From assembly GCA_011365055.1 (NCBI GenBank), contig RDOG01000007.1, positions 151,581 through 215,580 of the forward strand: a DNA stretch of 64,000 nucleotides, read 5' to 3'. Both the position numbers and the translations under genes were made by a program. Within the stretch, counting starts at the first letter, position 1. Every line of letters begins with the position of its first letter. This DNA comes from Promethearchaeota archaeon (GTDB taxonomy: Archaea; Asgardarchaeota; Lokiarchaeia; Helarchaeales; RDOG01). Shown in pieces: positions 1-64,000 of this stretch. The notes under the pieces are model-generated. The model searched no databases and was not told the origin of the DNA. It worked only from the letters and a program-made list of their open reading frames with translations.

Positions 1-3000
1 GCATAAACTGTTGTATAATTTTCTAACTCAATCGAAATATTGAGATAACAGTTACCCTCACCTAATCTACTAACATCAATCTCCGTTATAGTGTATTTAT
101 TATTAATAGGTCCAGTTAAATCGCCAAATTTAGTTTGTGATTGATTTATAGTTATATTATTTGAAAACAAAATTGGATAAGAATTTAGATCTAAATCTTT
201 ATATTGAATCACCAAAGAAATGTTCTGTCCTAATGGTACGGTACCGATAGGATCGTAGCTTAATTGAGCTTGTCTATCTCTTACGTTTATATTTATTATC
301 ATTGATTTATTTTGATATTTATTAATTGGATCTGTTCCCGTCCAATTAACTTTTATCTCTATTGTATAGGTACCTGCTTGATCCCAATAATCAGTATCAA
401 TTGATAATTCATAAGTTTCATCTCCTGGGTTTCCTACCCAACTAAAATGCGTAGATGAGATGTTGATACTAATAGAAATATCCTCTGGAGCATAAATATT
501 AACTGAGTGGAATGTATCCTTATAAGTTAGGGCAAATGTTACATTTTCACTAATTGGAGTGATTGCAGGTGCTTCGTACAAGATTTGGGTATCAATAGGT
601 CTAATTCTGAAGTAAAATGTTTGTGATACAAGGTCATATGAAGGATGAGTAACATTTACTTCAGTAAGATAGTATCCAATTGCGGGATTAGGCACTGGCT
701 TACCCGAAGTATTGATGGTGATCTTATAATTCCCATCTTCATAATCGTAAACTGAATAGTGTGAAGAAGGCCAATCGACCGTAACATTTGCGTTTGAAAT
801 ATATTGCCCATCAATAGTCGTGTAAGTAATGTTAAAGGTGACATTTTCTCCCCAAACAGTGCTTTCTGGAGGTAACAAACCGAGTATGGGGATATTCAAA
901 GACAGCTTCACAGAAACTCGCAGCTCTTGCGATTCATAATACTGTTTAGATGCATTAATGCTTAGATTATAAATTTGATTGGAACCAAAAGTAGAAATAA
1001 ATGTAGAAGTATTGATTTGAATTACCCAATATGTATTAATGCCTGAACCAACTTGATAAAAAGTAGAATTATCTTGCATTGAGGTATGGTCCCAGGACCA
1101 ATCCATGTTTACATGGTAAGTCTCACTAGTTTCATTAGAAATTCCAACACTTGCTTCTCTATCTTCATAATAAATAGTTATATTTACCAATCCTTCAGGC
1201 AGAATCGAACTTGGTGCATATGGAGATCTCAATCGAGTAAAAGTATCTCGAAGTGTTAGATTAAGTTTTGAAATTGATCTAGAAACATAATTGGTTTTAC
1301 TCACGTTAATTTGAAATGTATAAATTAGATTGGTTGATAAATTTTCCATAGTTATTGAAATTTTATAAGTACCTGTTGATATATTTGAATAAGTCCAATT
1401 ATTATTATATATAAAATGCAAACTTCCGGGTGAACCTCCATCAATATATTTTAGGGTGAGATTAATGGTCGCTGCATCAATCCCTGAACCAAATTCATCT
1501 TCATAAGTAATTGTAAAGGTTGCATTTTCTGTAGCGCTATATGGTGTAATACCTGGTGGTTCATAAGTTAAAAACGTGGAAATATTTCTTATTGTAACAG
1601 AAATATAAGCTGTTGCATTATCATAATCTTCAGAATTATTAGTAACAGTAACTTTGATCACATAGGTTCCCAATGAAAGAGAATAGGTTGAAACCTGATT
1701 GATGATATATGAACCATCAGGTTGTCTGATGGCATTGTTATATGTAAAATTCATTACTAGCGTGCTAGTACTATTCATTGTCATTTCTGGATATTCATCA
1801 TCATCAATATCATGATATTGAATTGTTAAGGAAACGTTTTTCCCCCATGGAACTTGACCCGGTGGTGTATATAGCAATTCTGTATTATGTCTTCTAATTG
1901 TAATTGGGATAATTCGTTCAGTAGGTTCATAATTTGTTTTTACAACAGTGATATTCAAATCATGAGTACCAATTGTCCAGGTATCAGTATCGATGTTATT
2001 TAAGTAATATGAATTAGTGGTTGCTTCATAAGTAATTGAACTATTTGGAAATACAACATTATTTAAATAAACTGTCGTATCAGCGGTTTTTATATCCGGA
2101 TAAGTATTGTCATCTGTATCATGATATTGAATTTTTAGTGAGGTTATGTTATGACCCCATGCAATCTGCCCTGGTGGTTCATAAAGAATTTCTGTTGAAA
2201 TATTCCTAATTATTAAATTAAATGATAAAGTATTGTTTTTATAATAAGGTGTCCCACTCCAGTTTACAAAAACCTGAATTGGATAAGTTCCCGCACTATT
2301 CCAATGAGAAGTATTTATTTTAATTAGATAATTACCACTAGAAAAATCATTCATAACTGAATAATAGCCTGTTTCGAACCCATTCCCAACATTATTATCT
2401 AGATCAACAGAAATGTTGAGTTGATTCCACAAAGTTTCATTAATTTTAACATTATGAGCAGTATCTTGATAAAACAATATTAAAGTCGTGTTTGCTCCAA
2501 TTTGAACAATAGAAGGTGGTGTATATAAGATTTGAGTATCTATTGGACGAATAAATATTCTAACTTCGATAGATTGCGTGGCATAAGTTCCACTGGTATC
2601 TTCAATTGTAATGTTAATCCTGTGATAACCTATATCGATATCTGGTAAAGGAATGACGCTAGTATTAAAAGTTATTTTAACTTCATTTCCATTTGATAAA
2701 TCTGGAATGCTATTTCCATATTCTTGTACCCAACTTCCTGTTCCTTCAGAAACTGGCTCCCACATGCTTGAACTATTCCACCAATATAAATAAATATTAG
2801 TTGCTGGACCAAATTGTGAGTTCCCTGATTCATCTGTATAAGAAACATAAAATTCAACGCTATCATTAAATACTGTTGGAAAAGGAGTAGTTGCTCCTAT
2901 TCTAGAATCTGATTTTCTTAATGAAATAGTAACATTTTCAAATGAAGTTTGGTAATTCTGTTTACTTGCGTTTATTGCTATCAAATAAATTAAACTTGTA

Positions 3001-6000
3001 TTGAACCCTGTTGTGTTAATATTCAATCTCCATGTATTATTTATACCACTTACTGAATCTTGATAAATTCTTGAATTTAATTGTAAAGTTGAATTATATA
3101 CCCAATCAGTAAAACCAGGATATTTGCTGTAACAAGTATAATTAATAAAGACAGGTGCGCTACCCGTCAAATTAGAGATCTTTAAAGTGTTTTCAATATC
3201 CCAATATTCCATTGTAATGTTATATTGTCCAAGAACAATTAATTTACTTAAACTACCTTCGATATCTAGATCTGCATAAGTAGATCTTGCAGTTAAATTA
3301 ACATTTTTTATACTTGCTGTCTTATATGAAGCTAAAGAAGCTTCAAAATCAAATGAATATATTTCATCAAGAGTCATGTTATCCATTTCAATTTCAACTA
3401 AATATGTACCGTCTCCATTATCTGTATATGTCCAATTTTGATTAAATACAAATATATCTCCTGGATTATTGGTGACTTCAGTCAGATAAATATCAGCACC
3501 AGGAATTCCAATTCCACGATCTAAATCTTGAAACGTTAACGTCATTGTGGCATTAATTTGATCTGTCCAAGGAAGAATTCCTGGAGGTGTATATGTAAGA
3601 GAGGTTGTCACATTTCTAATATTCAAAGGAATGGTTAAAGAATGATTATAATGATATGATTTATTCACAAATACTTTAATTTGATATAAGCCTACCGGCC
3701 ATCGAGTAGAATTTGATGTATTTATTGTAATATTGTATGTACCTATAGGATTTTCAATACAATTAAAATCAAGTACATTAATAGGATTGAATGGATTTGT
3801 TACATTTTGAATATAGATTGTTGCTCCTTCTAATGGACCTGATGTATATTCTCCAGTATCCGTTAAATTTTCAGCAAAAATCACTATTGAAGTATTTTCT
3901 TTGAATGGAATGACTGGAGTCTCAGCATACCAAATTAAAGTATCTTCCCATGTTACTTTAATCGTAACATTAAATTGAATTGTTTCAAAGAGAATTTGTT
4001 CGTTAAAATAAATTGTAACATTAAAATAAAGATAATCTCTTCCCTGTGATTGTGCATAAGTAGCAGGGATGGTCACGTAATAATTATTACCTGTAGCATC
4101 AGAAGGATTTTTATTGAAATACATCAAAAATTCGGGATTATTATAATCCCTGATAATGATCTTTAATTTTCCACTAGAATTAGTATACGGTGCAAGATTT
4201 TCATAGACATTTCTTAATCTCAGTGAAATATTATAGTCATCTTTATAAAATAATTCAGTAAATCGAGCTCCTTGACGGACATCTAAAGGAGCTAGAACAT
4301 CACAAACCATATCAATGGCTTGTGTTATTTGATGTGTAACAATAATTGTCTCAAAATATTTTTTCTGTAAAATTAATTGTACTTCTTGAGTTCCATTTTT
4401 TAAATTAAGCGTGCTAAAGTCAATTGAATAATTTCCTGTGCCATATTCATTAAATAACGTATAATTTGCAGCATTATTAGCAGGTGTTGTGTAATTTAAG
4501 TACATGGTTCCCTCACTAATTTTTTGATCCTCATCCGTTAATGCAGTACTCCAATTCGCTATGAATTTCAGAAATTGAGGTTGAAGATAAATGTCTCCTG
4601 GAAGAACTAAACTACTATCAATAGCGTAAAAATCGGTATCTGCTTGAGAATGTGCGTAAAATAAAACTGTCTGGTTATTACATCCAACTTTTGATAGAGG
4701 AAATCCTGTATCTGAGTTATTCCAGGTTGTATCAATTCTGAATTTTCCAATATAATTCAATATAGTGGTGTTTGGTATGGTCCATTCAAGAGAAAAATTG
4801 CCTGAATTTGTTCCAGTTTGATTGTTTAAGGATTCTAATACTGCCTCATCATTACTATCTTGAATGCGCCATGTTTTTACCATATATCTTCCATTTAAAT
4901 TCAAAGTTAAATTAATATCAAAATGAGTCAAATCACCCAGATAATAAATCAATTGGGATGGATTAACCGTGTCAACATAATTTGGTGAATGATAAAATAT
5001 TGACCATGTTCCATTCTTACCATCAGAAAATGATTCATAAAATTGAACCGTGCTGTTTGATAAACCTGAATATTCTACATAAATATTATTAGTAATATTT
5101 TTAAGTTGATATGTTTCTGGAATTATTGCTGGCCTTAAAACTTTAATAGGTTCCCAATCCTCTGGTGTTGTTATATTAAATTGATAATCTGAAATATCAT
5201 TTAAATCAGTTGAAGTTACAGTATGATCAACCCACCAACCGACTTTTGATGAATCTACTAGGGAAGGTGCAGTAAAATTGTAAGAAGCAAGATATAATTT
5301 ATTAACATTCATCATAATTTCAGCGTTTAAAGAAACATCAAAAACTTCAATAGAAGTATTAAATCCAAAATCAAAAGTATTTCCACTAGAATATGTTGAC
5401 AGGATAGGATTAACTAACGTACCCGTTCCAAATGTGCCATTCATAAAATCTGCGGTCAATCCGTTAGAATGATCAAGCAATTTCAAATTAATTGCAGCAT
5501 CACCCGGATCTAAATCAGCCACCAGAGTCAAGTTTAAATCATCAAAATAGTAAGTATAATTTGAATCTAACGAAATATCTGTAGTTTCTAATGAAAGTCC
5601 TATTCTAAATACAAACGGCCCATTTTCACTAGATTCAGAACGTGCATTAAACCATGCTTTTATATCGCTTGAGTGTGCTTCCAATTTATACCAATTTAAA
5701 CCATCATTTACAATAGATGAATCTAAAGAGACTGTCTGACTAGCATATCTTAAATACATTTTTTGGGAAGGATTTTGTGAATTTTCATCAAAAAATTGAA
5801 TGTATGGATAATAAGTTGTTGCACCAGAGAGGCGATCCCCTCTATAATAAACTGAAAAAAATGCATCTGTTATATCTCTACCTTGAAAACCTGAACTAAA
5901 TTCTGAAGTTTGGTTTAAAGCTAAAATCGCATTCGTTTCAATTCTTAATTTATAATATATTCTACAAGTTAATTTATAAAGCCATCCCATTTGTCTTGTT

Positions 6001-7049
6001 TGCTGTGGACCTCCTGCACCTGCAATAATTTCAAATCCACCACTAACATAAGCCTCTGGAAGTCCATCAATTTCTGTTCCCTCAATATAAATAGTGTCAT
6101 TTAACATACCCGTATCATCTAATTCAACTGAGAAGTTAGCAATCGCTTTTTTAAAAAAGCGAAGAGTTCCTGGCGATGCTGAACCAAAATGTATCATACC
6201 TCTAATTTCACTTGCATAAGTTCCACCTGGACTCAGACGCCATGCATATAATCTCATTGAATAATCAATTTCTACATAATCAATTTCATAATCTAGAGGA
6301 TTAACGCCTTGATATAAATCGATAGATTGTGAAATGGATGCTGATCCAACTGATGTATTTCCTTTAGTATATTCATTTACATACATTGCATCTTCATAAG
6401 CAAATTGATCAATTCCTTCAACGGTCTCTGTCCAATTATAAAAATCTGGAAACCAACTAGTGCCACTATATTGGTTAATTTCTCCATTTCTTTGATCAAT
6501 ACGAATATCATTTGATAATTCTCCAGATTCTCCGATCAAAACTATTTCTCTTGAACCAGTTCCATCAGCCGTATGAGACATCGTACTATTATGTTCATTT
6601 ACAAAATCATCACCAACATGGACTCCTTGAACTTCATTATGCTCTATCCAATTCGAATCTCCATCAAAATTTTCATTTTGAATCCATTGACCGGTTTCCT
6701 GAAGCGAATTAATTGTTGCATTGACTGAAGTTCCATCCCAATTTTGATTATTTACGGTAATACTTAAATTATCAGTAGAATTTGCTTGTATATTAATTCT
6801 TGAATTAGATTGAATACCCTGCTCCATAATAGTAATTCCAGATCCTCCAGAACCTGTATATGGATCCATAATTTCACTCCCTGCTCCAGCTGGTATAATA
6901 AAAAAATCATCATTTGGTAATTTATCGCCATTATCTTTAGCAATTTCATTAGAATTATATGGGATATTTGGTATAAATGGCATGAATGAGACGAATAAAA
7001 CAAGTGAAATAAAAATTAAAGTAAATATTTTAAACTTATATAGTTTCAT
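1..7049 (-). CDS. Giant Ig-like repeat surface protein, N-terminal 2,349 residues (runs off left edge)
   Basis: This frame is open from an ATG at 7049 to base 1 without a stop. A GGTG ribosome binding site lies about eight bases before the ATG. Residues 1-30 form a secretion signal or anchor (KLYKFK, then a hydrophobic stretch and MPFIPNIP). Next comes an acidic Gly/Ser/Asn-rich N-terminal region of several hundred residues with beta-sandwich character. Tandem Ig-like units of about 100 residues follow, recognisable by lines such as YEPPGQIAWGHN, YTPPGQVPWGKN and ITIYYEDREASVG, with many N-x-S/T sequons. It is a clear paralogue of the 5,004-residue protein at 47166-62180. By analogy it should end, off the window, in one membrane segment and a cytoplasmic tail. 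A surface adhesin or S-layer-associated role is inference. Confidence 0.9.
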   Translation of the reverse strand, partial: MKLYKFKIFTLIFISLVLFVSFMPFIPNIPYNSNEIAKDNGDKLPNDDFFIIPAGAGSEIMDPYTGSGGSGITIMEQGIQSNSRINIQANSTDNLSITVNNQNWDGTSVNATINSLQETGQWIQNENFDGDSNWIEHNEVQGVHVGDDFVNEHNSTMSHTADGTGSREIVLIGESGELSNDIRIDQRNGEINQYSGTSWFPDFYNWTETVEGIDQFAYEDAMYVNEYTKGNTSVGSASISQSIDLYQGVNPLDYEIDYVEIDYSMRLYAWRLSPGGTYASEIRGMIHFGSASPGTLRFFKKAIANFSVELDDTGMLNDTIYIEGTEIDGLPEAYVSGGFEIIAGAGGPQQTRQMGWLYKLTCRIYYKLRIETNAILALNQTSEFSSGFQGRDITDAFFSVYYRGDRLSGATTYYPYIQFFDENSQNPSQKMYLRYASQTVSLDSSIVNDGLNWYKLEAHSSDIKAWFNARSESSENGPFVFRIGLSLETTDISLDSNYTYYFDDLNLTLVADLDPGDAAINLKLLDHSNGLTADFMNGTFGTGTLVNPILSTYSSGNTFDFGFNTSIEVFDVSLNAEIMMNVNKLYLASYNFTAPSLVDSSKVGWWVDHTVTSTDLNDISDYQFNITTPEDWEPIKVLRPAIIPETYQLKNITNNIYVEYSGLSNSTVQFYESFSDGKNGTWSIFYHSPNYVDTVNPSQLIYYLGDLTHFDINLTLNLNGRYMVKTWRIQDSNDEAVLESLNNQTGTNSGNFSLEWTIPNTTILNYIGKFRIDTTWNNSDTGFPLSKVGCNNQTVLFYAHSQADTDFYAIDSSLVLPGDIYLQPQFLKFIANWSTALTDEDQKISEGTMYLNYTTPANNAANYTLFNEYGTGNYSIDFSTLNLKNGTQEVQLILQKKYFETIIVTHQITQAIDMVCDVLAPLDVRQGARFTELFYKDDYNISLRLRNVYENLAPYTNSSGKLKIIIRDYNNPEFLMYFNKNPSDATGNNYYVTIPATYAQSQGRDYLYFNVTIYFNEQILFETIQFNVTIKVTWEDTLIWYAETPVIPFKENTSIVIFAENLTDTGEYTSGPLEGATIYIQNVTNPFNPINVLDFNCIENPIGTYNITINTSNSTRWPVGLYQIKVFVNKSYHYNHSLTIPLNIRNVTTSLTYTPPGILPWTDQINATMTLTFQDLDRGIGIPGADIYLTEVTNNPGDIFVFNQNWTYTDNGDGTYLVEIEMDNMTLDEIYSFDFEASLASYKTASIKNVNLTARSTYADLDIEGSLSKLIVLGQYNITMEYWDIENTLKISNLTGSAPVFINYTCYSKYPGFTDWVYNSTLQLNSRIYQDSVSGINNTWRLNINTTGFNTSLIYLIAINASKQNYQTSFENVTISLRKSDSRIGATTPFPTVFNDSVEFYVSYTDESGNSQFGPATNIYLYWWNSSSMWEPVSEGTGSWVQEYGNSIPDLSNGNEVKITFNTSVIPLPDIDIGYHRINITIEDTSGTYATQSIEVRIFIRPIDTQILYTPPSIVQIGANTTLILFYQDTAHNVKINETLWNQLNISVDLDNNVGNGFETGYYSVMNDFSSGNYLIKINTSHWNSAGTYPIQVFVNWSGTPYYKNNTLSFNLIIRNISTEILYEPPGQIAWGHNITSLKIQYHDTDDNTYPDIKTADTTVYLNNVVFPNSSITYEATTNSYYLNNIDTDTWTIGTHDLNITVVKTNYEPTERIIPITIRRHNTELLYTPPGQVPWGKNVSLTIQYHDIDDDEYPEMTMNSTSTLVMNFTYNNAIRQPDGSYIINQVSTYSLSLGTYVIKVTVTNNSEDYDNATAYISVTIRNISTFLTYEPPGITPYSATENATFTITYEDEFGSGIDAATINLTLKYIDGGSPGSLHFIYNNNWTYSNISTGTYKISITMENLSTNLIYTFQINVSKTNYVSRSISKLNLTLRDTFTRLRSPYAPSSILPEGLVNITIYYEDREASVGISNETSETYHVNMDWSWDHTSMQDNSTFYQVGSGINTYWVIQINTSTFISTFGSNQIYNLSINASKQYYESQELRVSVKLSLNIPILGLLPPESTVWGENVTFNITYTTIDGQYISNANVTVDWPSSHYSVYDYEDGNYKITINTSGKPVPNPAIGYYLTEVNVTHPSYDLVSQTFYFRIRPIDTQILYEAPAITPISENVTFALTYKDTFHSVNIYAPEDISISINISSTHFSWVGNPGDETYELSIDTDYWDQAGTYTIEIKVNWTGTDPINKYQNKSMIININVRDRQAQLSYDPIGTVPLGQNISLVIQYKDLDLNSYPILFSNNITINQSQTKFGDLTGPINNKYTITEIDVSRLGEGNCYLNISIELENYTTVY

Positions 7050-7614: not shown

Positions 7615-9009
7615 CTATCCGAATATTTTATCTTTTAAATTTATTGCTCGTTCAAATAGAGAAATGTCTCCATCAAAATCTTCGAGTTCCTTATTAAATT
7701 CGGAACAAAATTCTTTGACAAATTCTCTCAATTTATTAATTACTTTTTGAGTTGGTGGTCCCTTTAAAATAAGTGCACCTGTAATAGATTCTTGATCATC
7801 CAATATGATTTCAAAATCTTTATATTCTAATTTAGTAACAGATGTATCTCCTTGGGATATTTGCATTCCAAATGTTTTAATTGCAGTCAAAAATCCACTA
7901 ATTAAATTTGGTTCGATCATATTCGAAGAAAAATCGTGGGAATAAATAGTTACTCCCGAGACTTTCGTAATAACCATCAGATATTGTATAATTCTTGTGA
8001 AGTAGTTGGTTTCAATTTGTTTAAAAAGTGAATAAAAATCTTCAATGATTCCTTGTAAATCTTGAATTTGAGTCTCTGAATAAATATCTCGATATGTCTC
8101 ATAATCATATCGAACTATTTTATTTAATTCAACAATCCAAAATAATAAATAATATTCAAGAATGATACTTTTTTCTTCTACTAATTTCTTCTGTTTTTCA
8201 TTATACTCATCCAACTCATTGATCCACTTCTGAATTTCATTTATAAAACCAATTTCAGGATAAGAATATATAATTTTTGTTCTAAGTTCTATCAATTGAC
8301 TTAAAATGTCCTCAATTTTTCCCCCTTGTTCACAAGAATTAAAGATCTCAATTAATATGTTTTTTATTGCACTTATATCATGAATTTTTTGGTTTATTTT
8401 TGCAGTTTTCTCCTCAAATTTCGATGATGAATCAAATAAAATTTTTAATGAATTTTTTAAAAAGGTTAAAATTCCGAATGATTGATAGATTTCTTTAGTC
8501 CAAATTGTGAGATATGCCTTGAAGTCATGTATGGATAATTCAGCAACCATGTTATTATTTAAAATTGGCGCAAAACCTGAATAAATAGCATAATAATCAA
8601 TATTGTCTCCTTTAATTTCATTTAACTCAAAAGCTTTAAACTGATCAATAAAAATCTGAAATGCTTTTTTTTGATCTATACTAAACTCAATGATTCCTGA
8701 CCTTTTTTTTAAATATTTTTTTAACTTTTCAACATCAAATAATGTAATTTCTTTAATTTTATATTCCATTCCTGTTGATATTCGAGTATTATCATCACTC
8801 TCCAACCAAGAAATTGAAGGAATTGATGTATTAAACTGCATTTCATGTATTTTTGGGATTTGAACTGGATCAGGATATGATATTTTTGAAATAAAACTAA
8901 AGCATTTAAATTTTGCATCTTTATTAACTTTTAAATTTGTTATCGAACAGATACTTAAGGATTTTTCAAAATTTTGACAATTCTTACATTGTTGATTTTC
9001 ATCTTCCAA
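7615..9009 (-). CDS. Cys-rich N terminus plus longin/roadblock-like domain protein, 464 aa
   Basis: The function is unknown. The N terminus has four cysteines (C8, C11, C21, C36) in a possible metal-binding knuckle. Residues ~95-215 and ~345-450 are two alpha/beta domains that match, in the same order, residues ~357-470 and ~615-720 of the 739-residue protein at 26054-28273. Shared lines include SGFLTAIKTFG against GGFLTAIQSFG, YKDFEIILDD against YKDFQIEIED, and ALILKG against AIILKG. The last domain has the look of the longin/roadblock-like folds abundant in Asgard archaea. A helical linker of ~130 residues separates the two domains. The start is a TTG at 9009 with GGTAG just upstream. It sits upstream of, and in the same direction as, the left giant surface protein and divergent from an Arf-like GTPase, so a shared signalling role is plausible but inferred. 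Confidence 0.8.
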   Translation of the reverse strand: MEDENQQCKNCQNFEKSLSICSITNLKVNKDAKFKCFSFISKISYPDPVQIPKIHEMQFNTSIPSISWLESDDNTRISTGMEYKIKEITLFDVEKLKKYLKKRSGIIEFSIDQKKAFQIFIDQFKAFELNEIKGDNIDYYAIYSGFAPILNNNMVAELSIHDFKAYLTIWTKEIYQSFGILTFLKNSLKILFDSSSKFEEKTAKINQKIHDISAIKNILIEIFNSCEQGGKIEDILSQLIELRTKIIYSYPEIGFINEIQKWINELDEYNEKQKKLVEEKSIILEYYLLFWIVELNKIVRYDYETYRDIYSETQIQDLQGIIEDFYSLFKQIETNYFTRIIQYLMVITKVSGVTIYSHDFSSNMIEPNLISGFLTAIKTFGMQISQGDTSVTKLEYKDFEIILDDQESITGALILKGPPTQKVINKLREFVKEFCSEFNKELEDFDGDISLFERAINLKDKIFG

Positions 9010-10934: not shown

Positions 10935-11318
10935 TTAATCTTTATCTTGTTTTTTTTTCTTATAGAGATATACAATTCTTGAAAATATGCTCGGAATTAA
11001 GTCCAAATATCGTTCTTTTGATAATTTATTTAATAATTGAATTCCAGCATAATCTAAAATATCCTCATAATCATCAGGATCATCTTCTGTATCTAGAATT
11101 AAAGAAATGTATAAATCCATCTCAGATCCTGTATACGTGCTAGCTATATTAAGTGAACCAACACTTAAAGAAAAGAATTTAACACTTTTATCATAAGCAT
11201 GTGCGGTATAGATTCGCATTAAAATGCTAGGATCAAGATCAAACTCTATGGGAAATTTTGTTTCAATATGCATTCCCCTTTTTTCATTAAAGGTAAAAAT
11301 CACAATTCCTTTGAGCAT
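10935..11318 (-). CDS. Stand-alone longin-like domain protein, 127 aa
   Basis: A single-domain protein that aligns end to end with the N-terminal ~125 residues of the 365-residue protein at 46069-47166. Both begin M-L-x-G-I, then share YT.H, SLNIAS.YTG against ELNVAS.YTG, a PDDYEDIL/PEDYEDIL line, and RY.DLIP/RY.DDLP. The pattern of strands and helices fits the longin/roadblock superfamily, whose members serve as platforms or GEF subunits for small GTPases in eukaryotes. The C terminus is lysine-rich. It is convergent with the Arf-like GTPase next to it, 139 bp apart, so the two are neighbours but not in one operon. The role as GTPase partner is inferred from family and context. Confidence 0.8.
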   Translation of the reverse strand: MLKGIVIFTFNEKRGMHIETKFPIEFDLDPSILMRIYTAHAYDKSVKFFSLSVGSLNIASTYTGSEMDLYISLILDTEDDPDDYEDILDYAGIQLLNKLSKERYLDLIPSIFSRIVYLYKKKKQDKD

Positions 11319-40281: not shown

Positions 40282-40282
40282 G

Positions 40283-40798: not shown

Positions 40799-40926
40799 TA
40801 GCTTGAACATCTCCTATTAATATTAATTGTTAGAAAAGATTAATTATAAAAATTTTTATTAAAAAAGCACTCCTAAATAAAATAAGTATAAAAATTATAG
40901 AATGCTTTATTTATTCAACGATTACA

Positions 40927-56100: not shown

Positions 56101-59100
56101 AAATTTAACAATAAAACAGATGTATCGTTTAAATTCATTTCTGGATATGAATTAAAATCTATATCTCTGAAAGTTATTGCTAAGGTTGCATTAGTTCCCC
56201 ATGGAATTTGTCCGGGTGGTGTGTAAGTTAATTCCGTATCGTGAGCTCTGATATTGACATTAATCAGTCTTTTAACTGTAGAATAATTATCCTTGACAAT
56301 AGTTACATTTAGATAATTTAATCCAAGCTCCCAATCATCTGTATCAATTTCATTTAATATGTAAGATTGAGTACTCGTAATATAAGTTATATTTGTATAA
56401 GGTGTCTCATTGACGTAAACTATTGTATCTGGTGAAGTTATATTTGGATACGTAACTAAATCCAGATCTCTATATTGAATTGTCAATGATGTGTTCCTTC
56501 CCCAAGCAACACTTCCGATTGGTTCATAACTTAATTCTGCAATTCTATTTCTGACGTTTAAATTTAACGTTAACGTTTTATTTTGATATTTATTAACAGG
56601 ATCCGTGCCAGTCCAATTCATTGAAATAGTTATAGGATATGTCCCTGCAGAACTCCAGTAATCCGTGTCAATAGTCAAATCATAATTTTGATTACCTGCA
56701 TTACCTGTCCAACTATAGTAGGTTGATGGGATATTAATTTGAATAGTAACGTTGCTCGGATCATATATGATTAGATCATGAAAAGTATCAATGTAAGTTA
56801 TTGCAAACGATACATTTTCTCCTATAGGGGTAATTTCAGGAGCTTCGTATAATATTTGCGTGTCAATTGGTCTAACACGTAAATTAAAGGTTTGTGAAAC
56901 CTCATCGTATGATGTTTGTGTCACATTTATTTGAACTACATAATATCCTTTCTCAGGATTTGGGATTGGTAAACCTGTTGTATTAATTTCTATTTCATAT
57001 TTACCATTACCTGCAGCACCGAAATCGGTAATTGTATAATAACCATCTGTCCAGTTCAAATCTATAGATGCATCTTCAATATATTCCCCTCCAAGTGTCG
57101 TGTAAGTTATATTGAAGGTGACATTTTCACCCCATACTGTGCCTTCTGGGGGTAATACTCCGAGAATTGGCATGTTTAATGAAATTTTTATTGCTATATT
57201 TAACTCTTGCCATTCATAATATTGCTTACTTGCATTAATCGTCAAATTATAAACTTGATCGGCTCCAAATTCATTGACAAAACTAGTTGTATTTATTTGG
57301 ATGACCCAATAGGTGCTTGTTCCAGTCCCCAATTGTATGAATGTTGAATTTTCTTGCATGGATGTGTGATCCCAAGACCAATTCATACTCACGTGGTACG
57401 ATTCAGCAGTTTCGTTGGAAATACCGACCCCTGCTTCTCTGTCTTCATAATAAATTGTAATGTTATACAATCCTTCTGGAAGGATTGCACTTGGAGCTTG
57501 AGGTGATCTTAAACGAGTATATGTATCTCTTAAAGTTAGATTTACGCTTGAAAGAGTTCTGGCAATATAATTAGCTTTACTTGCATTTACTTGAAAAGTA
57601 TAAATTAAATTAGTACTAAGATTCTCCATTGCAACTTGAATGCTATATTCTCCATTTCCAAGATACGAATAAGTCCAATTTTCATTGTATATGAAAAGCA
57701 TACTTCCAGGTGAACCTCCATCAATATATTTTAAATTAAGATTAATTGTTGCAGCATCTATACCTTCACTAAATTCATCCTCATAAGTAATTGTAAAAGT
57801 TGCATTTTCTGTAGCACTGTAAGGTGTTATACCTGGAGGATCATATTGTAGGAAAGTTGAAACGTTTCTGATTGTTAATGGAGGATATGCTATTGCTGTA
57901 TGATATTTATGTGAATTATTGTTTACTGTAATATTGAAATAGTAACTTCCAAGATTAAATGAATCTGTATTCAAGTTATATATTATATATGATCCATCTG
58001 GTTTTCGCACAGCAGATTCAAAAGTAACATTTGAAATTAATACTGTTGTACTATTCATTTCCATTTCGGGATAAGTATCATCATCTATATCGTGAAATTT
58101 AAATATTAATGTTGCATTTGTTCCCCAGGGGATTTGACCAGGCGGTGTATATAAAATTTCAGTATTATGAGGTCTTATTATAATTTTAATAAGACGTTCT
58201 GCAGGATCATAATGTTCTTTGACTATTGTGATGTTGAGATAATTAACTCCTAACTCCCAATCATCCGTATCAACATCATTTAGGATATAAGATTCAGTTG
58301 CAGCTTCATAAGTAATATCAGTGAAAGGAGTTTCATTTACATAAACAACGGTATCTGGTGCTGTAATATTTGGATAAGTATCCGTATCTGTATCGTGGAA
58401 TTGAATTTTTAATTCAGTAATATTATGACCCCAAGCTATTTGTCCTGGAGGTTCATATAAAATTTCAGTAGAGCCATTTCGTACCGTGAATATAATATTT
58501 ACTGAATTATTTTGATATTGATTTAACGGATCTATTCCCGTCCAATTCGCATATATTATAATTGGATAGCTACCAGCTGATCCCCAATAAGTAGTATTAA
58601 TCGAAATATAATATCTATCTCCAATTCTTGACGTATTATAATAACTATCGTCAATATTTACTGATATACTTACATTATCGCTGCTAATAGGTTGGTTATT
58701 ATGATAAGTATCAATAAATTGGATATAAAAAGTAGAATTATCACCATACTCTTCCACGGGTGGAGACTGATAAAAAATTTGTGTGTCTATAGGACGCACG
58801 TATAAATAAACATTTTGAGTCCTATCATTATAATTAGGAGCTGAACAATTTATTTGAAGACCCCATCTTCCCGAAGTTGGCACCCCTAGATTTAAATCCG
58901 TAACATTTAAAGTAACATTAAAATATGGGATGCTTTCAATAGTAGTTTCCGTATATGACCATAATGAAGAACTCCAATTTAACGTGATTGAAGAACCATC
59001 TGGCTGAATTCCCGATATATCTGTATAAGAGACGTAAAATGATACATTTTCTCCCCATACTGTTCGTTCAGGCGGAATTACTCCCATTGATGCCAAATTT

Positions 59101-62100
59101 TTTTGCAAACTTATTGTTATTTTGATCTCTTGGTGTTCGTAATGAGTTTTATTTATCGTTATTGTTGCATTATATTTTATATTAAGGTCATAACCTGTGG
59201 TATCAATTGATATATACCATGTATCCTTCATAGGATCTTCAATCAATGTATATTCACTATCAATGCTCGAATTATCCCAAGATATAGAAATATTCACTGG
59301 ATTATCTGTAGTATTCACTATTTTTTCTACGATTGATAAATCCCAATATTCTAATGTAATATTATATGGACCTTGTGGAATTAGCGCTGCTGGATATTCT
59401 GGACATTCTATTTTAGTTTCTGTTGGAACTATATTCATTATAACATTGCTCAAATATCGAGTATTATAGCTTGGTGCTGAAGCTGAAAAATTAAAAATAT
59501 ATTTTCCTTCATCAAGAGTCGACATATTTATATTAACAATGTATTCGCCATCAGTAACTCCCGGGTAAATATTTAAGGCTACACCGTTCGCTAATTCTGG
59601 ATAAGTAGATTCATTAGCCGTTGCGGTCATTTGTATGTTTGCATTGGGTATACCTTGTAATTCATGATCTGCATCTCTATAATTCAAATAAATGGTTGCA
59701 TTTTTTGTATCTGACCAACGTATATTGCCTGGTGGCGTGTAAATGAAATCTGATGTAATATCACGTATTGTTAATGGAACATTTAACGTTTTATTTAGAT
59801 GATATGTTTTATTAAATGAAATTATAAGTAAATATTGCCCTGCTGGAAATAAGTTTGTGTCACTAGTGTTGATTGTTAACTCATATTCTCCAGGTGTCGC
59901 AGTTTCTGTAAAATCTAATGGAACTAAGGTTCCATTAATTAAAATATCATCCACGTTTCTAAGTGGACCAGTGGAATTTTGAGCAGTGATTATCAATGTT
60001 GTGTTATCACTATAAGGTGTAACAGGAACAGTACTGAATGATAAGAACATTTCCTCAAGAATAAGAATTGTGAAAGCGCTTAGATTAGTTTGGGTGTCAT
60101 AATATTCTTTATCCGCATAAACATCAATAGTATGTGCTCCTAAATTTGAAATAGTAGTTGGAATGCTAATTAAATAGTTTCCACCTCCTGAAATCATTTC
60201 CGGATCACTCGGGTCAATAATTAAATCATTTCCAATTCCTGTCCAATCATGTATGACAAAAGTTACGTTTGCATCAGCAACCTTCCCAAATCCTGCATCT
60301 AAATCATCAAAAAATATTCCAAGCGATACATCATTTCCTAAGATAAATGTCTTATTTTTATTATAGGTTGAATTTATCAGTGTTGAATGATTGACCATAA
60401 ATGTAGTTTTACTAAATCCTGCTTCTTTTGGACTTAATGAATCATTATAAGTCGAAATTATTGTATAAGTTCCAGCTTTTGCTGTGGATAAAGGAATATT
60501 AAATATCATATATTGTCCACTAACGGTAGTCTCATTACCATAAAACAATTGATTATCAGGATCATAAATTTCTATGCGATTATATCCTGAGTAAGAACTA
60601 TCAGGTAAAGATCTAATTGTATTATTTACAATTAAAGTATCCGAAGGCCTGAAGTTATTTGGTTCCGAATTTCCTGATAATTGAGTATTAGTTATGTAAT
60701 TTGATGAATTAGCACTAATATACCAATATCCTGAACTTGTATAAGAAGAACTATTAATTTCTAATATTTTATCATTCCCAGATGTATAGATATTATATGA
60801 AATTGGATCACGATTTGGATCAAGAACTTCGTTTATAGTCCAATCTCCTGGAAAAGTAATATTGAATGCACGATTAGTATATTTTGGTGCTAAAGATGGA
60901 GATGGATTATAAAATTCCCATGAGACATTTCCTCCTGATGAAACAGAGAAGTCTACTCCTTCTTCATTCAAAATATCTTTAGTCCCATGAGTTTGATTGA
61001 TATACGCAGTAGTATTTGAACGTAAATAACTCGTGTTAGTGTTTGTATGTGTATAGGTTGATGTGACATCTGTGTTCCATAACCCCGTGTTGATTACGGT
61101 GGCATCAGAATAGCCTGACCCTGGAGTTACAGAAACAGCTGTGCCTCCATTTGTCGCCATTTGCAAGTTTATATCATCAGGATGTACACCAGCTTGAAGT
61201 TCCAATTCAAAATTATCAAATGACACTAACCATTCTTTCTTTGTTGCAGTAGTAAAAAGACCCGAAACACTTTGATAAAACTCAGCAATACATTCAAACC
61301 CTATCTCTACATCAACAGTACCTGTTGGGCTAGAAAACACGCTCGTGGGAATTGTAAAATCTGTAACTGAATCCCAAGCGTTATTAGTGAATTCATAAAG
61401 ATACTTATACCAAACAACCGTACCCTCGATTTCCACATAAATTCTTAAATTACCCATTGGTAAATAAGTCAATGAATCAGAGTCTTCTGTTCGTATCAAA
61501 AAGTCAAGCGATATTTTTGCATCATATACTTCTCCTCTAGGTATTGCATAACTTTTTGTAAACGTACCATAATCTCCTACCTCAACATATGTCGAAACTG
61601 TACCCAAAACTGCTGTTATTGAATGCAATTCCATTTCGAATCCATTTGTTCCATAAGTTAGAATATTTGCACCAGTAGAATCGTCATCTGAATTCTCATT
61701 CGCTGGAGGCTCGCTCACAAATTGTGTCCATCCTAATCCAGTGTCAGGAGAAGATGTATCTCCAAATCCTGCAATCCATTCTACACTATCAGAGGTTGCA
61801 TCAATTACTGAATAAATTTGTGTACATGACCAATCTGGTGGAATATCATTAAACACACTTCCTGAAATTCCTAAAAATCCGTCAGAAAAAGTATCAATAG
61901 TGCGATTAGTGGTTTGAGCGGTTTCATCAACTTGTAAAGAAGAACCTATGCCATTATATTCCGTTTGTGATGCATCTTTTGAAGATAAAATTGAATCTTC
62001 TTGATCATCTCTATCAATAATCTCCTCATTTGGTATTTCATCATTGTTTTGATCCTGATTAAAATTAGTTGTATTCAAATTAACTAGTGGATTAAAATAA

Positions 62101-62180
62101 GCTAATAATGGTATGAAAGGAGAAAAACTCATAACTAACAAAAAAACGATTGTAAACAATTTAAATCTTAATTTTTTCAT
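47166..62180 (-). CDS. Giant Ig-like repeat surface protein with one C-terminal membrane pass and cytoplasmic tail, 5,004 aa
   Basis: Signal or anchor at residues ~5-30; an N-terminal beta-sandwich region to ~450; then Ig-like units of about 100 residues, roughly forty by length, to ~4620. Repeats read PPG..(P/A)WG.N with acidic D-D-D segments. Larger cassettes recur: the line SPQAPSAIL lies near 1565, 2205 and 2946, with the order of neighbouring units conserved each time. Sequons are extremely dense. A membrane helix (~4630-4652) leads to ~350 cytoplasmic residues with four helical motifs ending in PPE.R..LL-like lines (MIPPEARRRLLKAG, KMAPKQQRKYLGDL, LLPPEEREATLEMM). ATG start behind GGTGAT. 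Stop overlaps the start of the longin-like gene. Surface adhesin, receptor or sheath protein; exact role unknown. Confidence 0.93.
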   Translation of the reverse strand: MKKLRFKLFTIVFLLVMSFSPFIPLLAYFNPLVNLNTTNFNQDQNNDEIPNEEIIDRDDQEDSILSSKDASQTEYNGIGSSLQVDETAQTTNRTIDTFSDGFLGISGSVFNDIPPDWSCTQIYSVIDATSDSVEWIAGFGDTSSPDTGLGWTQFVSEPPANENSDDDSTGANILTYGTNGFEMELHSITAVLGTVSTYVEVGDYGTFTKSYAIPRGEVYDAKISLDFLIRTEDSDSLTYLPMGNLRIYVEIEGTVVWYKYLYEFTNNAWDSVTDFTIPTSVFSSPTGTVDVEIGFECIAEFYQSVSGLFTTATKKEWLVSFDNFELELQAGVHPDDINLQMATNGGTAVSVTPGSGYSDATVINTGLWNTDVTSTYTHTNTNTSYLRSNTTAYINQTHGTKDILNEEGVDFSVSSGGNVSWEFYNPSPSLAPKYTNRAFNITFPGDWTINEVLDPNRDPISYNIYTSGNDKILEINSSSYTSSGYWYISANSSNYITNTQLSGNSEPNNFRPSDTLIVNNTIRSLPDSSYSGYNRIEIYDPDNQLFYGNETTVSGQYMIFNIPLSTAKAGTYTIISTYNDSLSPKEAGFSKTTFMVNHSTLINSTYNKNKTFILGNDVSLGIFFDDLDAGFGKVADANVTFVIHDWTGIGNDLIIDPSDPEMISGGGNYLISIPTTISNLGAHTIDVYADKEYYDTQTNLSAFTILILEEMFLSFSTVPVTPYSDNTTLIITAQNSTGPLRNVDDILINGTLVPLDFTETATPGEYELTINTSDTNLFPAGQYLLIISFNKTYHLNKTLNVPLTIRDITSDFIYTPPGNIRWSDTKNATIYLNYRDADHELQGIPNANIQMTATANESTYPELANGVALNIYPGVTDGEYIVNINMSTLDEGKYIFNFSASAPSYNTRYLSNVIMNIVPTETKIECPEYPAALIPQGPYNITLEYWDLSIVEKIVNTTDNPVNISISWDNSSIDSEYTLIEDPMKDTWYISIDTTGYDLNIKYNATITINKTHYEHQEIKITISLQKNLASMGVIPPERTVWGENVSFYVSYTDISGIQPDGSSITLNWSSSLWSYTETTIESIPYFNVTLNVTDLNLGVPTSGRWGLQINCSAPNYNDRTQNVYLYVRPIDTQIFYQSPPVEEYGDNSTFYIQFIDTYHNNQPISSDNVSISVNIDDSYYNTSRIGDRYYISINTTYWGSAGSYPIIIYANWTGIDPLNQYQNNSVNIIFTVRNGSTEILYEPPGQIAWGHNITELKIQFHDTDTDTYPNITAPDTVVYVNETPFTDITYEAATESYILNDVDTDDWELGVNYLNITIVKEHYDPAERLIKIIIRPHNTEILYTPPGQIPWGTNATLIFKFHDIDDDTYPEMEMNSTTVLISNVTFESAVRKPDGSYIIYNLNTDSFNLGSYYFNITVNNNSHKYHTAIAYPPLTIRNVSTFLQYDPPGITPYSATENATFTITYEDEFSEGIDAATINLNLKYIDGGSPGSMLFIYNENWTYSYLGNGEYSIQVAMENLSTNLIYTFQVNASKANYIARTLSSVNLTLRDTYTRLRSPQAPSAILPEGLYNITIYYEDREAGVGISNETAESYHVSMNWSWDHTSMQENSTFIQLGTGTSTYWVIQINTTSFVNEFGADQVYNLTINASKQYYEWQELNIAIKISLNMPILGVLPPEGTVWGENVTFNITYTTLGGEYIEDASIDLNWTDGYYTITDFGAAGNGKYEIEINTTGLPIPNPEKGYYVVQINVTQTSYDEVSQTFNLRVRPIDTQILYEAPEITPIGENVSFAITYIDTFHDLIIYDPSNVTIQINIPSTYYSWTGNAGNQNYDLTIDTDYWSSAGTYPITISMNWTGTDPVNKYQNKTLTLNLNVRNRIAELSYEPIGSVAWGRNTSLTIQYRDLDLVTYPNITSPDTIVYVNETPYTNITYITSTQSYILNEIDTDDWELGLNYLNVTIVKDNYSTVKRLINVNIRAHDTELTYTPPGQIPWGTNATLAITFRDIDFNSYPEMNLNDTSVLLLNFTYSHAIRQPDGTYIIYDINMSTLPLGNYKINVTIFNSSHRYDTATVYVPITVRNVSTFLEYDPPGTIKYSSTTNATFTITYKDEFDQGVQDATVNLSLIYMGGNPPTQSFILNQNWTYTYISGGTYQIGIAMENISTNIIYTFSINVNKSNYVSRTISSVNLTVRDAYTRLTSPQAPSAILQEGMFDILIYYEDREASIGISNESSETYHVSMNWSWDHTSMQANSTFLQMGSGSSTYWVIRINTTGFVNEFGTNQLYNLTLNASKQYYEWQELQIQIRISLNVPILAFLPPGPTVWGENVTFSVYYATTDGNYIPNANFTLNWPEAYYFVEDFGTVIYNVTINTSGRPVPILTGFYQLFVNISQISYEDVYQSFNLRIRPIDTQILYEVPEITPISENVSFSVTYKDTYHDLNIYDTDNVSINVNISSSYYNWIGNPGNENYDVTIDTDYWDSPGTYAIEISIEWIGTDPSNKYQNSTIIIGVNVRNRIAELNYEPIGSIPWGKNISLTIQYHDLDLNTYPTINETDTIIYVNESIFTNVTFIPATQSWILNDIDSDSWTVGKKYINLTIVKENYSSTVRMITANIRDHTTELLYTPPDSIPWGHNLTSLTVQFRDTDNDTYPDITSGTTVYVNDAIFTDITPEMDSYRLNNIDTEDLLVGTHSLNITIVKTGFDTAEAIITITIRIHTTEILYTPPGQIPWGTNENLTLQFHDIDDNNYPEMALNDTNVLILEILGETITYDYAVRQGNEYIIYNVSMETRALGNYQINLTIYNQSEWFKTAMTIIPITVRNISTFLQYDPPGVTPYSATENVTFNILYTDEFGGGIDSATVSMSLIYIDGGSPGAMNFAYNENWTYSEPSAGIYRIQIAMENLSTNVIYTFRIDVNKSNYVSRTLSSVNLTLRDTYTRLRSPQSPSAILQEGMFDILIYYEDREASVGISNETGEIYHVSMNWSWDHASIQANSTFLQMGSGTSTYWVIRINTTGFIENFGADQIYNLTLNASKQYYEWQELFISIKITLNQPLLGFLPPESTVWGENVTFNVTYTTLDGNYIPGASITLNWTNGYYYVQDLYPSDNGTYQITLNTTGLPVPDPSIGYHLVEVHAYQISFGTTIQTFYLRVRPIDTQILYEAPDITAISKNVTFSVVYRDIFHSVDVYVPENMSIQINIPSSYYSWTPNPIDQDFDLTIDTDYWSAAGTYSITITMNWTGSDPVNKYQNNSLILNINIRNRIAELSYEPIGSIPWGNNASLSFTYFDLDLESYPILTSNNVTIRMNGSILDFGEFSGPLTNKYTIKNINVYQNLTIGLYILNLTIQLTNYSVATRNISFTIRAHASELEYDPIGNVAWNENTSLRIYFRDVDNNSYPNLDLSSDLSLNVSYSSIIFYGNDNYGYYELADVKLDDLPIGTHYLELTISNSSYSLRTKLIHLTIRARYTSITINTPAGIVAYGNFATISLLWTDNDIESTQNGFNATYGQFNISLMYQGQNWLENFSQPGSNQLNTTAWWEYGTTIGSYIIHINTSCLAGIDSYSFTILANHSSGYYDNCSTSTYIQTRYRNTYLTVDSFQSPVYGENLTLYARFYDMDNVSGELDIEEEISGATLSFVQSGLSASYNALSPYYTIVINTSEFITINKDKVHNLNLTISWPSGIKFFYVNQSINVSIICKMIDTYHHTYFNTTATESYSGWNWGTDLNISIDYYYYFYGSQRNISGSYIDVEAPAPYTDLWTYLTLWGLRSDGQWENITLTKYSETGLFRIELNASAPENDLPYIFNVTIYNSTNSDDMFRNQSFQFAITFKKPFTGISIICEPDVYIPWGTNMTLKVFYFVADTVTGVSDSYADLMITIIGIDGNTTNVDVDQIQLTVNRELDDGRWNITMNTTWTENYTWLPGAIPRVYFRIDATALYVTDAWQETSVFIREIRSRLDFINGTSVVYTDRYEEGMISFNATYRYIDVDSGLPIEDYGTTTGRYANITFWNWDTISGLYNDTMWGQEKGWNETDYFGNFTVIYLSGGYYLFNFTFHYDMATNGPYQMKIAVNGTHLRGPTIDKSISLNLDYWVTLRLRSHRSNITFDDRDIMPQVPEWNTAWTPINTSAANLVVYGEELNISLFWYDLDLTGPLNQTGISFGAYNLTATIDPIWGNTEVHLLGSYTMNNMYIVKNNATYKGLYVINFDTGFFLQNYEFYDLVNGGPLGDGTYNLTVRFWLTGEAYDPEYQLAIANITIKILPIKTQINVISYSMGGFPLTITNNGSIVPFGTTNPDSLFYLTEFNFTNKNTSTLISSTGVFSSMVFVYFENYTAGIPDGTLIEWTPIFFDKGTGQYKVRIFTDTEWILNDVWIPWNATGYKEVNITIRIAKPNYENASAVMLIAFRKHDTRIAYFDSFGVGVPETPYNNESIGYRHERTIYFKYIDLDAAITGSEEYIRFGSVTSNWTFDWGRVEEVTTDRGWYRMIIDANPNFNVGTYYFNINASDSLAFRANTSITWEAIIIKAFTDLNMTLDKPEVYQFIDNIVVRVHYEDQFGQVITDATISYVLYSNGGIVASGVLINAGDGNYYAQIPTLTTGIGLFNISINATPSSVNFEGKSKWTNVVVTSIFLHPISVVLEIIVAGIIGFISYRQVKWIITPYTVKQIIKTRKVVSKKKDIKEIQVVRDRKELFKEEFAEEWAQLSLKPPTMVSSEIIQFTSELSNIKRSRVTTSEAKSLVNELKAMTLEQADAHLEKVLMIPPEARRRLLKAGGIIEVQKPEVIKMMELLVQIKEKPYTYEYCDELYSKLIKMKPEEASDLLWNQLLISSTDRITILQAIGMPVGKLRKKMKKELEPLSEKDIKKELKRYAELTVEQKQRELERILKMAPKQQRKYLGDLKKKQLAKEERKRKEKEEAEAGKGLTEEDIDMALKEITSLSDSDKKMMKESLMLLPPEEREATLEMMKNQFASTKLQEEIKPTGDLEKKDEEKVNDQKSEDRGGDK
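53272..57530 (-). repeat. Three Ig-like super-repeat cassettes within the giant gene
   Basis: The line SPQ(A/S)PSAIL recurs near bases 57487, 55567 and 53341, spaced 1,920 and 2,226 bp (about 640 and 742 residues). Flanking units follow in the same order, for example YYEDREA.(V/I)GISNE, NWSWDH, and PP..TVWGENVTF. DNA is nearly identical in places, which points to fairly recent internal duplication. A 39-base identical stretch is shared between 53272-53310 and 1138-1176 in the other giant gene. Confidence 0.85.
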
Positions 62181-62715: not shown

Positions 62716-64000
62716 TTGTTAAGGGAAATATTCATTTTAAAGGGAAAACAAAATATATATAAGCGCGCATATGGTGAAAGTATAAGTCTAGAAGCGTTAT
62801 CTCCAATTTTAGTATCGTTAATAGACTTTCTTAAAGATGCAAAAGAAGATACGATTGAATTTATGAATATCATTAATTTTAAAATTGCTTACGCAACAGA
62901 CATTACCCATAACTTGTTATTTATATATATAACCGATTTAACGGATGATAATCACAATATTGAAGAACAATTAGAAATCTATAAAGATGAATTTTTCTCT
63001 AGATTTGAAGCTATAATTGATGACAATGTGGATTTTAGTGTTTATGCCTCTTTTGATGATGTCTCCGATGAAATTTTTAAGGAATTAAGACCAAAAATCG
63101 CCTTAATTGGATTCAGTGGTGTTGGAAAAACTACTATAACAAGGCTTATTCGGGCTGAAGATATACCAATGAGGCATGTTCCTACAATTACTGGGGATGT
63201 TGCAACTATTAAAATAGGTCATGTTAATCTATATTTATGGGATTTTGCCGGACAAGAGAAATATAGTTTCGTTTGGAATAAATTTATTAAAGGCGCAGAT
63301 GCCGTTATTTTAATTCTTGATTCAACCTCAAAAAATGTAAAAGAATCTAAATTTTTTATAGAATTAATAAGAAAGGAAGAACCTCATGCAAAAATATCGA
63401 TCGTTGCTAATAAGCAAGATTTGCCTGATGCATTACCTCCCGATGAAATTGAAAAAGAATTAGGTTATAAAACCACAGGATTAATTGCAATTGATCCAGC
63501 ATCAAGAGAAAAAATGCTTTATGTTATCGCAGATTGTGTTAAAGTCCGATCATTAATTCAACCTTTTATTGAACCGTTATTACAGAGGGATAAATTAATT
63601 GCTGAAGCTGAGGCTGCTATAATTTCTGGTAATATTCAATTAGCGGCTGAAAAATTTGCAGCAATCGCTGAATTATCTGCAATATTAGAAGAGCCAGAAA
63701 TGTATGAGCATTTTAAAACTCAATCAGAACTTTTAAGAGCAAAATTAATGGAACTTCAAAAAGCTCTTTCATCCGGAGGTTCTGATTCCTCTACAATTTC
63801 TGAAGTGAAACCAAAACTTGACCATGATATTTCTATTCCAAAACCCTTTGAAGATGAAAAAACAACTAAAATGGATGAAATTGAAGAGATTGAAAAAAAG
63901 AAGAAAGAAGAAAGACTGAAGAAGGAAGAAGACAAGAAGAAAGAGGAAGACAAGAAGAAAGAGGAAGACAAGAAGAAAGAGGAAGACAAGAAGAAAGAGG
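62716..64000 (+). CDS. Arf-like GTPase with N-terminal longin-like domain (runs off right edge)
   Basis: First 428 residues of a paralogue of the GTPase at 9428-10795. Start is TTG with AAGGAGA upstream, at the place of the paralogue's ATG (LLREIFILKG against MLREIIILRG). Longin-like domain 1-~110; P-loop GFSGVGKTT (~133-141); switch I HVPTITGD; G3 WDFAGQEKY (~174-182); G4 NKQD (~232-235); after a helical region (~290-350) a linker and a Lys/Glu-rich tail. The tail ends in an 18-base tandem repeat that continues past the window edge. Divergent from the giant surface protein gene, as in the first locus. Confidence 0.92.
   Translation, partial: MLREIFILKGKQNIYKRAYGESISLEALSPILVSLIDFLKDAKEDTIEFMNIINFKIAYATDITHNLLFIYITDLTDDNHNIEEQLEIYKDEFFSRFEAIIDDNVDFSVYASFDDVSDEIFKELRPKIALIGFSGVGKTTITRLIRAEDIPMRHVPTITGDVATIKIGHVNLYLWDFAGQEKYSFVWNKFIKGADAVILILDSTSKNVKESKFFIELIRKEEPHAKISIVANKQDLPDALPPDEIEKELGYKTTGLIAIDPASREKMLYVIADCVKVRSLIQPFIEPLLQRDKLIAEAEAAIISGNIQLAAEKFAAIAELSAILEEPEMYEHFKTQSELLRAKLMELQKALSSGGSDSSTISEVKPKLDHDISIPKPFEDEKTTKMDEIEEIEKKKKEERLKKEEDKKKEEDKKKEEDKKKEEDKKKE
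63928..63999 (+). repeat. 18-bp minisatellite encoding EDKKKE, at least four copies
   Basis: The unit GAAGACAAGAAGAAAGAG is repeated four times without change (63928, 63946, 63964, 63982) and runs off the window. It is in frame, adding six residues per copy to a charged coiled coil. Perfect identity suggests recent or ongoing copy-number change. Confidence 0.9.

Follow-up and report, generated by a model that had tools for sequence, protein, structure and literature searches.

A candidate receptor-linked, NPRL2-like longin module neighboring longin-Arf GTPases in Asgard archaea

The window analyzed here, a stretch of 64,000 nucleotides (nt) from a Promethearchaeota archaeon of the Helarchaeales (assembly GCA_011365055.1, contig RDOG01000007.1, forward-strand positions 151,581 to 215,580), carries at each end a gene for a giant surface protein near a gene for a longin-Arf GTPase, together with longin proteins that could connect the two. 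At one end, giant2 (47166..62180, minus strand; 5,004 aa) consists of an N-terminal signal-like segment, a repeat ectodomain, a single C-terminal transmembrane segment located by hydropathy (aa ~4623-4641, 48258..48314) and a charged cytoplasmic tail bearing a juxtamembrane motif (aa 4648-4705, 48066..48239). It is followed on the same strand by MLxL (46069..47166), the long form of a protein beginning M-L-x-G-I (MLHGI, 365 aa), and lies divergent from LonG2 (62716..63999, plus strand), a longin-Arf GTPase with a G domain at ~63085-63531 that is cut by the window end. The other end holds giant1 (3..7049, minus strand), whose C-terminus lies beyond the window edge; lon1 (7615..9009, minus strand), with a C-terminal longin-like domain at ~7621-7989; LonG1 (9428..10795, plus strand; Pfam Arf E 2.7e-21), comprising a longin-like part (~9428-9787), a G domain (~9803-10189) and a C-terminal extension; and MLxS (10935..11318, minus strand), the short M-L-x-G-I protein (MLKGI, 127 aa).

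The initial annotation had placed a minus-strand giant near a divergent, plus-strand longin-GTPase at both ends, an arrangement that calling of open reading frames (ORFs) and translation confirmed. Its claim that the giants, the GTPases and the M-L-x-G-I proteins are paralogous between the ends held in BLASTP for all three pairs, with 42% identity over 1,809 columns for the giants, 41.7% for LonG1 and LonG2 (E 1e-100) and 34% for the M-L-x-G-I proteins (E 2.5e-25). An M-L-x-G-I protein is thus present at each locus as described, but the two differ in architecture: MLxS, which the profile of the MLxL family finds over aa 1-121 (E 1.2e-38), aligns solely with the N-terminal part of MLxL and is a longin part only, whereas MLxL adds winged helices. 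At three loci of genome G001, MLxS, MLxL and the GTPase are found no more than a few kb apart; elsewhere MLxS is often apart from MLxL, and one copy fell in a control stretch, so we rejected it as a constant member of the system. The nearest relatives of MLxL number 29 proteins at E<=1e-3, the named ones mostly from Helarchaeota and some from Lokiarchaeota and Hodarchaeota.

Three domains can be recognized in the predicted model of MLxL, all encoded on the minus strand: a longin domain (aa 1-120, 46807..47166), a first winged helix (aa 122-206, 46549..46803) with matches to SrnR/RosR, and a second (aa 244-326, 46189..46437) with profile matches of HlyU/ArsR type (best E 0.0068). Both winged helices were delimited by DSSP, and a third was not identified in the model. 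Foldseek assigned the N-terminus a longin fold; the best match to the model spanned 289 columns, but the whole superposition was poor (TM-score 0.21), and we therefore claim only the longin domain by structure. The order seen in the model, a longin domain first and two winged helices after it, gives MLxL an NPRL2-like architecture: Npr2 and Npr3 have been described as a longin domain and then tandem winged helices, forming a triad (PMC3521125). By sequence, NPR2/NPR3 was absent from the 25 Pfam families listed, out of 77, for 39 diverse MLxL rows, nor among the 40 PDB sequences matched by the MLxL profile at E<=10; the longin matches do include clathrin-adaptor and COPI small subunits. In NPRL2, we take Arg78 to lie in the loop preceding the fifth longin strand, and NPRL3-type partners may lack a catalytic arginine. 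Arg78 is the catalytic arginine of NPRL2 and is located in the N-lobe (PMC9646525). The longin domain of MLxL has no conserved arginine, no column exceeding 46% arginine among the 39 rows, and a role as an arginine-finger GTPase-activating protein (GAP) of the NPRL2 type was for this reason rejected; to judge from the alignment, MLxL is likelier to be a guanine nucleotide exchange factor (GEF), a scaffold or a co-regulator. Outside the longin domain, the arginine at residue 205, part of an RxP motif just past the first winged helix, is invariant in 39/39 sequences. The longin domain is acidic (mean net charge -9.6 over the 39 rows), and the winged helices average -1.3 and -2.9, with their recognition helices at -1.1 and -0.6 and a spread that includes basic members.

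In the window, the stop codon of giant2 and the start codon of MLxL share letters (TAATG), and ahead of this overlap the final codons of giant2 contain a GGAGG; from this arrangement we infer translational coupling. The same intimacy was found elsewhere. All 52 split receptor-MLxL pairs that we collected lie on the same strand (52/52), with a gap of <=5 nt in 43/52, and a Gly-Gly of the kind encoded by GGAGG ends 12/14 of the split-receptor tails that were followed to their ends (alignment A6). In Loki-type genomes MLxL also occurs as the C-terminal cytoplasmic domain of receptors of 2,100-2,700 residues. The nine fusions in the fetched stretches, a number that is not a frequency because the stretches were drawn from the strongest hits and five were chosen for an open frame of >2,000 aa, each combine an N-terminal hydrophobic segment, an ectodomain, one transmembrane segment, ~100 residues and a complete C-terminal MLxL. 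Four of them stand in tandem in G108 (L058-L059; ~2,650 residues each, one cut by the stretch but visible at full length in the phylum-wide scan), and the others are in G111, G113, G122 and G127; L064 and L065 hold triplets of split receptor and MLxL with a GTPase gene among them. A protein search with the tail and MLxL of one of these fused receptors returned 125 proteins at E<=1e-10, with query coverage of at least 66% in 108 of the 120 listed, and the taxon labels among the matches listed are Asgard or "marine sediment metagenome". Many of the fused receptors have LamG-like (PF13385) and DUF2341 (PF10102) domains in their ectodomains, which suggests that they may bind carbohydrates or surfaces.

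Split and fused receptors also have in common a basic juxtamembrane module, IPxFVKKxRxMKKxI...W..LGLS. A hidden Markov model profile of 45 Loki-type tails, from which the window was left out, finds the giant2 tail just past the transmembrane segment (E 1.3e-6) and two Helarchaeal receptors (E 1.2e-13 and 2.1e-12), gives at best weak matches to the tails of other clades (E 5e-5 to 1.6), and reaches no better than E 0.14 among 713 control ORFs. Two tail profiles were made, both of them from receptors adjoining MLxL. In ten whole genomes searched with a tail profile, 27 of the 28 tail hits (E<=1e-4, hand count) adjoin MLxL or are in frame with it, and 27/34 MLxL hits at E<=1e-100 have such a tail. 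When a fused tail and MLxL (455 aa, 37 rows) were modeled with AlphaFold2, the tail blocks at residues 11-70 reached a predicted local distance difference test score (pLDDT) of 83-97, residues 72-86 fell to <50, and the predicted template modeling score (pTM) was 0.85, the same as for the window MLxL alone. Within the reach of single-chain pLDDT and pTM, this confidently folded tail, like the co-occurrence of tails and MLxL, gives indirect support to a docking of the tail to MLxL, and the acidic longin domain fits the basic tail. L206 (9277-12503) encodes, beside an MLxL paralogue, two small proteins of 532 and 543 aa whose ends overlap and which have a hydrophobic segment close to the C-terminus; one of them matches the other tail model weakly (E 3.7e-5), and small receptors of this type may exist.

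That the receptor and MLxL form one unit is strongly supported by these observations, and because of the fusion, the gene coupling and the shared tail we consider it very likely that a contact outside the cell would be linked through the giant and its tail to MLxL.

Recurrence was examined across the Asgard phylum, where the MLxL profile matches 160/227 genomes (E<=1e-5, partial matches included); up to eight candidates were scored per genome (<=8), and paralogue counts are accordingly lower bounds. Among 93 MLxL genes, nine are fused to a large surface protein and 52 more have one within 1.5 kb (61 in total), a surface protein being defined as a protein of 600 aa or more for which a simple hydropathy scan shows a hydrophobic N-terminus and, further in, one or two hydrophobic segments, or as a frame cut by the stretch end, as in 11 of the 52 split partners. 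A window-like Arf-type GTPase (E<1e-20) lies within 3 kb of 34/93, and at least one of the two partners accompanies 80/93. Among 361 control genes of 250-700 aa, taken from 40 stretches (long contigs, 15 of the same genomes), the corresponding counts were 10, 2 and 12. After clustering at 60% identity, the surface protein was kept by the majority in 17/31 MLxL clusters and the GTPase in 13/31 (Fisher P 6e-15 and 3e-14, respectively), and at 50% identity in 11/22 and 9/22. The initial annotation had suggested a surface-to-cytoplasm module with a GTPase switch and had proposed looking for a recurring neighborhood in related genomes. The neighborhood recurs (61/93 and 34/93 against 10/361 and 2/361 in controls), and natural fusions place the M-L-x-G-I module in the cytoplasm; control of the GTPase is the part of that suggestion which we still only infer.

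The GTPases themselves are nearest to Arf, which ranks first among Pfam families for both window proteins and matches 26/26 rows of the LonG alignment; the best PDB match of the LonG profile is ARF1 (E 1.1e-28). Gtr1_RagA matches 19/26 rows and is weaker than Arf in the window protein. Arf-family proteins typically have an N-terminal amphipathic helix and are myristoylated at glycine-2. In the LonG proteins, a longin-like domain of ~120 residues precedes the G domain, and neither window copy has a glycine at position 2. Among the 34 GTPases near MLxL, G motifs were recognized by pattern in 34/34 (G1), 32/34 (G3) and 31/34 (G4), and a model of the longin N-terminus matches 32/34 (E<1e-5); 23 of the 26 LonG rows went into this model, and most of those rows recur among the 34 proteins tested; it hits 4/713 control ORFs as well. 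The longin-like domain of LonG is homologous to the C-terminal domain of lon1 and lon3 (hhalign E 4.7e-7), and longin-type Pfam hits occur in few rows (for LonG, Clat_adaptor_s 2/26 and Fuz_longin_1 2/26; Longin 1/30). At loci without a receptor, MLxL directly adjoins the GTPase gene in many genomes (L138-L140, L145-L148, L151, L152), and the two genes overlap by 4 nt in L145 and L147. Since this neighborhood is found in many clades and longin proteins are known to serve as GTPase platforms, we regard a link between MLxL and the GTPase as fairly likely.

Taken together, these observations suggest how such a system might work. The giant, crossing the membrane once, would contact something outside the cell with its ectodomain. 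Its basic juxtamembrane tail would keep the acidic MLxL at the cytoplasmic side of the membrane, as a separate, co-translated protein in the window and as the C-terminal domain of the same chain in the Loki-type relatives. MLxL could then recruit or regulate the neighboring longin-Arf GTPase, most simply through a longin-longin or a longin-G-domain contact, so that engagement outside would change the state of the GTPase inside. Ligand sensing, tail docking, recruitment of the GTPase and the direction of regulation are all conjectural steps in this scheme, and we hold the longin-coupled giant receptor as a whole, with an NPRL2-like module kept at the tail and acting on the GTPase by recruitment or regulation, to be probable by a modest measure.

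Several observations weigh against this receptor model. Its evidence comes from genes and single-chain predicted models throughout. A receptor and a GTPase are both near in only 15/93 MLxL genes, and 13/93 have neither partner as defined here, although the stretch ends within 5 kb of eight of these 13, three code for longer forms (574-619 aa), and two have a multi-transmembrane large protein adjoining or one gene off that falls outside the surface-protein definition. The partner downstream of giant1 falls outside the window. The one exception among the 28 tail hits, a receptor of 3,583 aa (L203, 7488-18239), has the tail motif with no MLxL adjoining, and may use an MLxL encoded elsewhere; conversely, no tail reached E<=1e-4 at MLxL paralogues weaker than E 1e-100 when the ten genomes were searched. 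On the side of the GTPase, two of the 34 neighbors have no G3 and three no G4 by pattern, and two have no longin match. The longin domains of MLxL and LonG show no significant profile link (E 0.11). Finally, as many as 1,367 longin-Arf GTPases match at E<=1e-20, so that most of them presumably lie elsewhere than at such loci.

A similar plan may be repeated between the two ends of the window. Here the initial annotation had noted a third surface protein of 2,080 aa followed by a longin-like paralogue of the one at the first locus, and both were found: surf3 (19592..25834, plus strand) has a sialidase-like carbohydrate-binding module domain, a transmembrane segment (~25196-25252) and a tail of ~190 aa of another kind, and lon3 (26054..28273, plus strand) is 30% identical to lon1 (BLASTP E 3.6e-64). 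In lon3, winged helices (aa 60-184; HTH_HVO_0163_N E 1.5e-10) precede a possibly ear-like middle and a C-terminal longin-like domain (~27881-28219), with no profile link between the longins of MLxL and those of lon1 and lon3. Relatives of lon3 adjoin surface proteins (L189, L192, L194 twice) or are fused behind a transmembrane segment (L193, L195-L200), and 11/17 lon genes lie beside or fused to surface proteins in a hand count of 15 chosen windows, made without a control count and with a fragment comprising only a helix-turn-helix (HTH) domain excluded. Because of this placement, surf3 and lon3 seem to represent another class of receptor, built alike, in split and fused forms, with a different longin adaptor. 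In L193 (1929-9752), L196 (2241-11336), L197, L198 and L200 the lon-type longin-like domain stands directly behind the transmembrane segment of proteins of 1,500-3,000 residues, and a Ras-like GTPase gene is found in the same fetched stretch as the fused receptor in L196, L198 and L200. It is possible, although we lean somewhat against it, that giant receptors acting through NPRL2-like modules on Arf-family longin-GTPases make up a phylum-wide prokaryotic signaling class with at least two adaptor families (MLxL and lon3).

The strongest competitor of the receptor model is a trafficking role, in which the tail would be a sorting signal, MLxL and lon3 would be adaptors, and the Arf-type GTPase would recruit them to place, cluster or remove giant adhesins, with no signal passing from outside to inside. 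The clathrin-adaptor and COPI matches of the longin domain and the uniform Arf matches of LonG would suit such a role, as would the ear-type hits in relatives of lon3, which are sub-threshold (GAE_BBS1 in 6/11, best E 0.0094), and the Vps28-C, adaptin appendage and longin proteins known from Asgard archaea (PMC10936438, 2024). The tail, however, is no short peptide but a conserved module of ~60-90 residues. Permanent fusion of an adaptor to its cargo is, moreover, unusual in coats, and we consider trafficking unlikely, if clearly the best of the alternatives. A second possibility starts from the winged helices of MLxL and lon3, with their weak to clear matches to regulators: membrane-tethered regulators with a DNA-binding winged helix are familiar from proteins of the ToxR/CadC type, and the winged helices could bind DNA and let the receptor control a gene, the GTPase being incidental. 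The winged helices of MLxL have a negative mean net charge, the same series of domains is also the Npr2/Npr3 plan, and the association with the GTPase would be left unexplained, all of which makes this reading improbable. Finally, the giants could be adhesins with a structural role, and the small genes bystanders expressed along with them in regions that duplicate often, as the tandem duplication at L058/L059, L064 and L065 and the inflation of the counts by related genomes might suggest, but the natural fusions, the shared tail and a signal that persists after clustering make this very improbable.

Two further genes of the window stand apart from the receptor model. A Ras/Rab-like GTPase without a longin domain (40283-40810, minus strand), between both loci, adjoins a gene for a Sir2-like deacetylase identified by eye, and a protein with DUF4139 and DUF4140 is encoded at 30264-31919 on the minus strand (Pfam E 5e-34 and 7e-19).

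Asgard archaea are the microbes closest to the ancestors of eukaryotic cells and have many small GTPases and longin proteins. Matching an Asgard GTPase to its regulator has been described as difficult because the genes of MK-D1 are generally not linked in this way, its small GTPase genes lying for the most part outside operons with longin, roadblock or TRAPPC3 genes (PMC10933270). At the loci studied here, receptor, longin regulator and GTPase could be matched through genome structure, and receptor and longin also through natural fusion, which would provide directly testable partner sets for the Asgard GTPase machinery. Internal membrane compartments have hardly been seen in Asgard cells (PMC9834061), and the job proposed here for a eukaryote-like GTPase machinery in such cells would be to read or organize the cell surface. 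The receptor model, should it be true, bears on the origin of longin systems of the GATOR and coat types. The less likely phylum-wide signaling class would, for its part, be an Asgard forerunner of the longin-GTPase logic of eukaryotic endomembranes (GATOR-Rag, coat-Arf) that is still tied to the cell surface.

The known systems that come nearest include GATOR1 (SEACIT), a complex that activates Rag GTPases, with its subunits NPRL2/NPRL3, whose longin and winged-helix plan the model of MLxL resembles. MLxL differs from them in lacking a conserved longin arginine, in having no NPR2/NPR3 among the sequence matches listed, in being coupled or fused to a surface receptor, and in neighboring a GTPase that is nearer to Arf than to Rag. 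An "NPRL2-like longin domain" has been named among the Asgard eukaryotic signature families (PMC9834061). Asgard longin-GTPase fusions of the same kind as LonG1 and LonG2 have already been reported (PMC10933270); unlike the MK-D1 genes of that report, the loci studied here join the GTPase gene to those of a defined longin protein and a receptor. As far as their description goes, the Asgard Vps28-C/adaptin-ear/longin proteins (PMC10936438) resemble lon3 in its possibly ear-like middle, a sub-threshold likeness, and in a longin-like domain, but lon3 is paired with or fused to surface proteins, and Vps28 was not among the matches listed for lon3 and its relatives. MglA-MglB, a Ras-like GTPase with a roadblock regulator, is likewise a prokaryotic GTPase with a longin/roadblock-type partner; it has neither a receptor nor winged helices, a distinction drawn from its description rather than by sequence. 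Plexins and similar proteins are single-pass receptors with a cytoplasmic GTPase-regulating or regulator-like domain, made of unrelated domains and eukaryotic. In the open-licence literature we found no description of a receptor, an NPRL2-like module and a longin-Arf GTPase in one assembly. Provided that the link from receptor to GTPase is real, this assembly would be new, although each of its parts belongs to a known kind of family.

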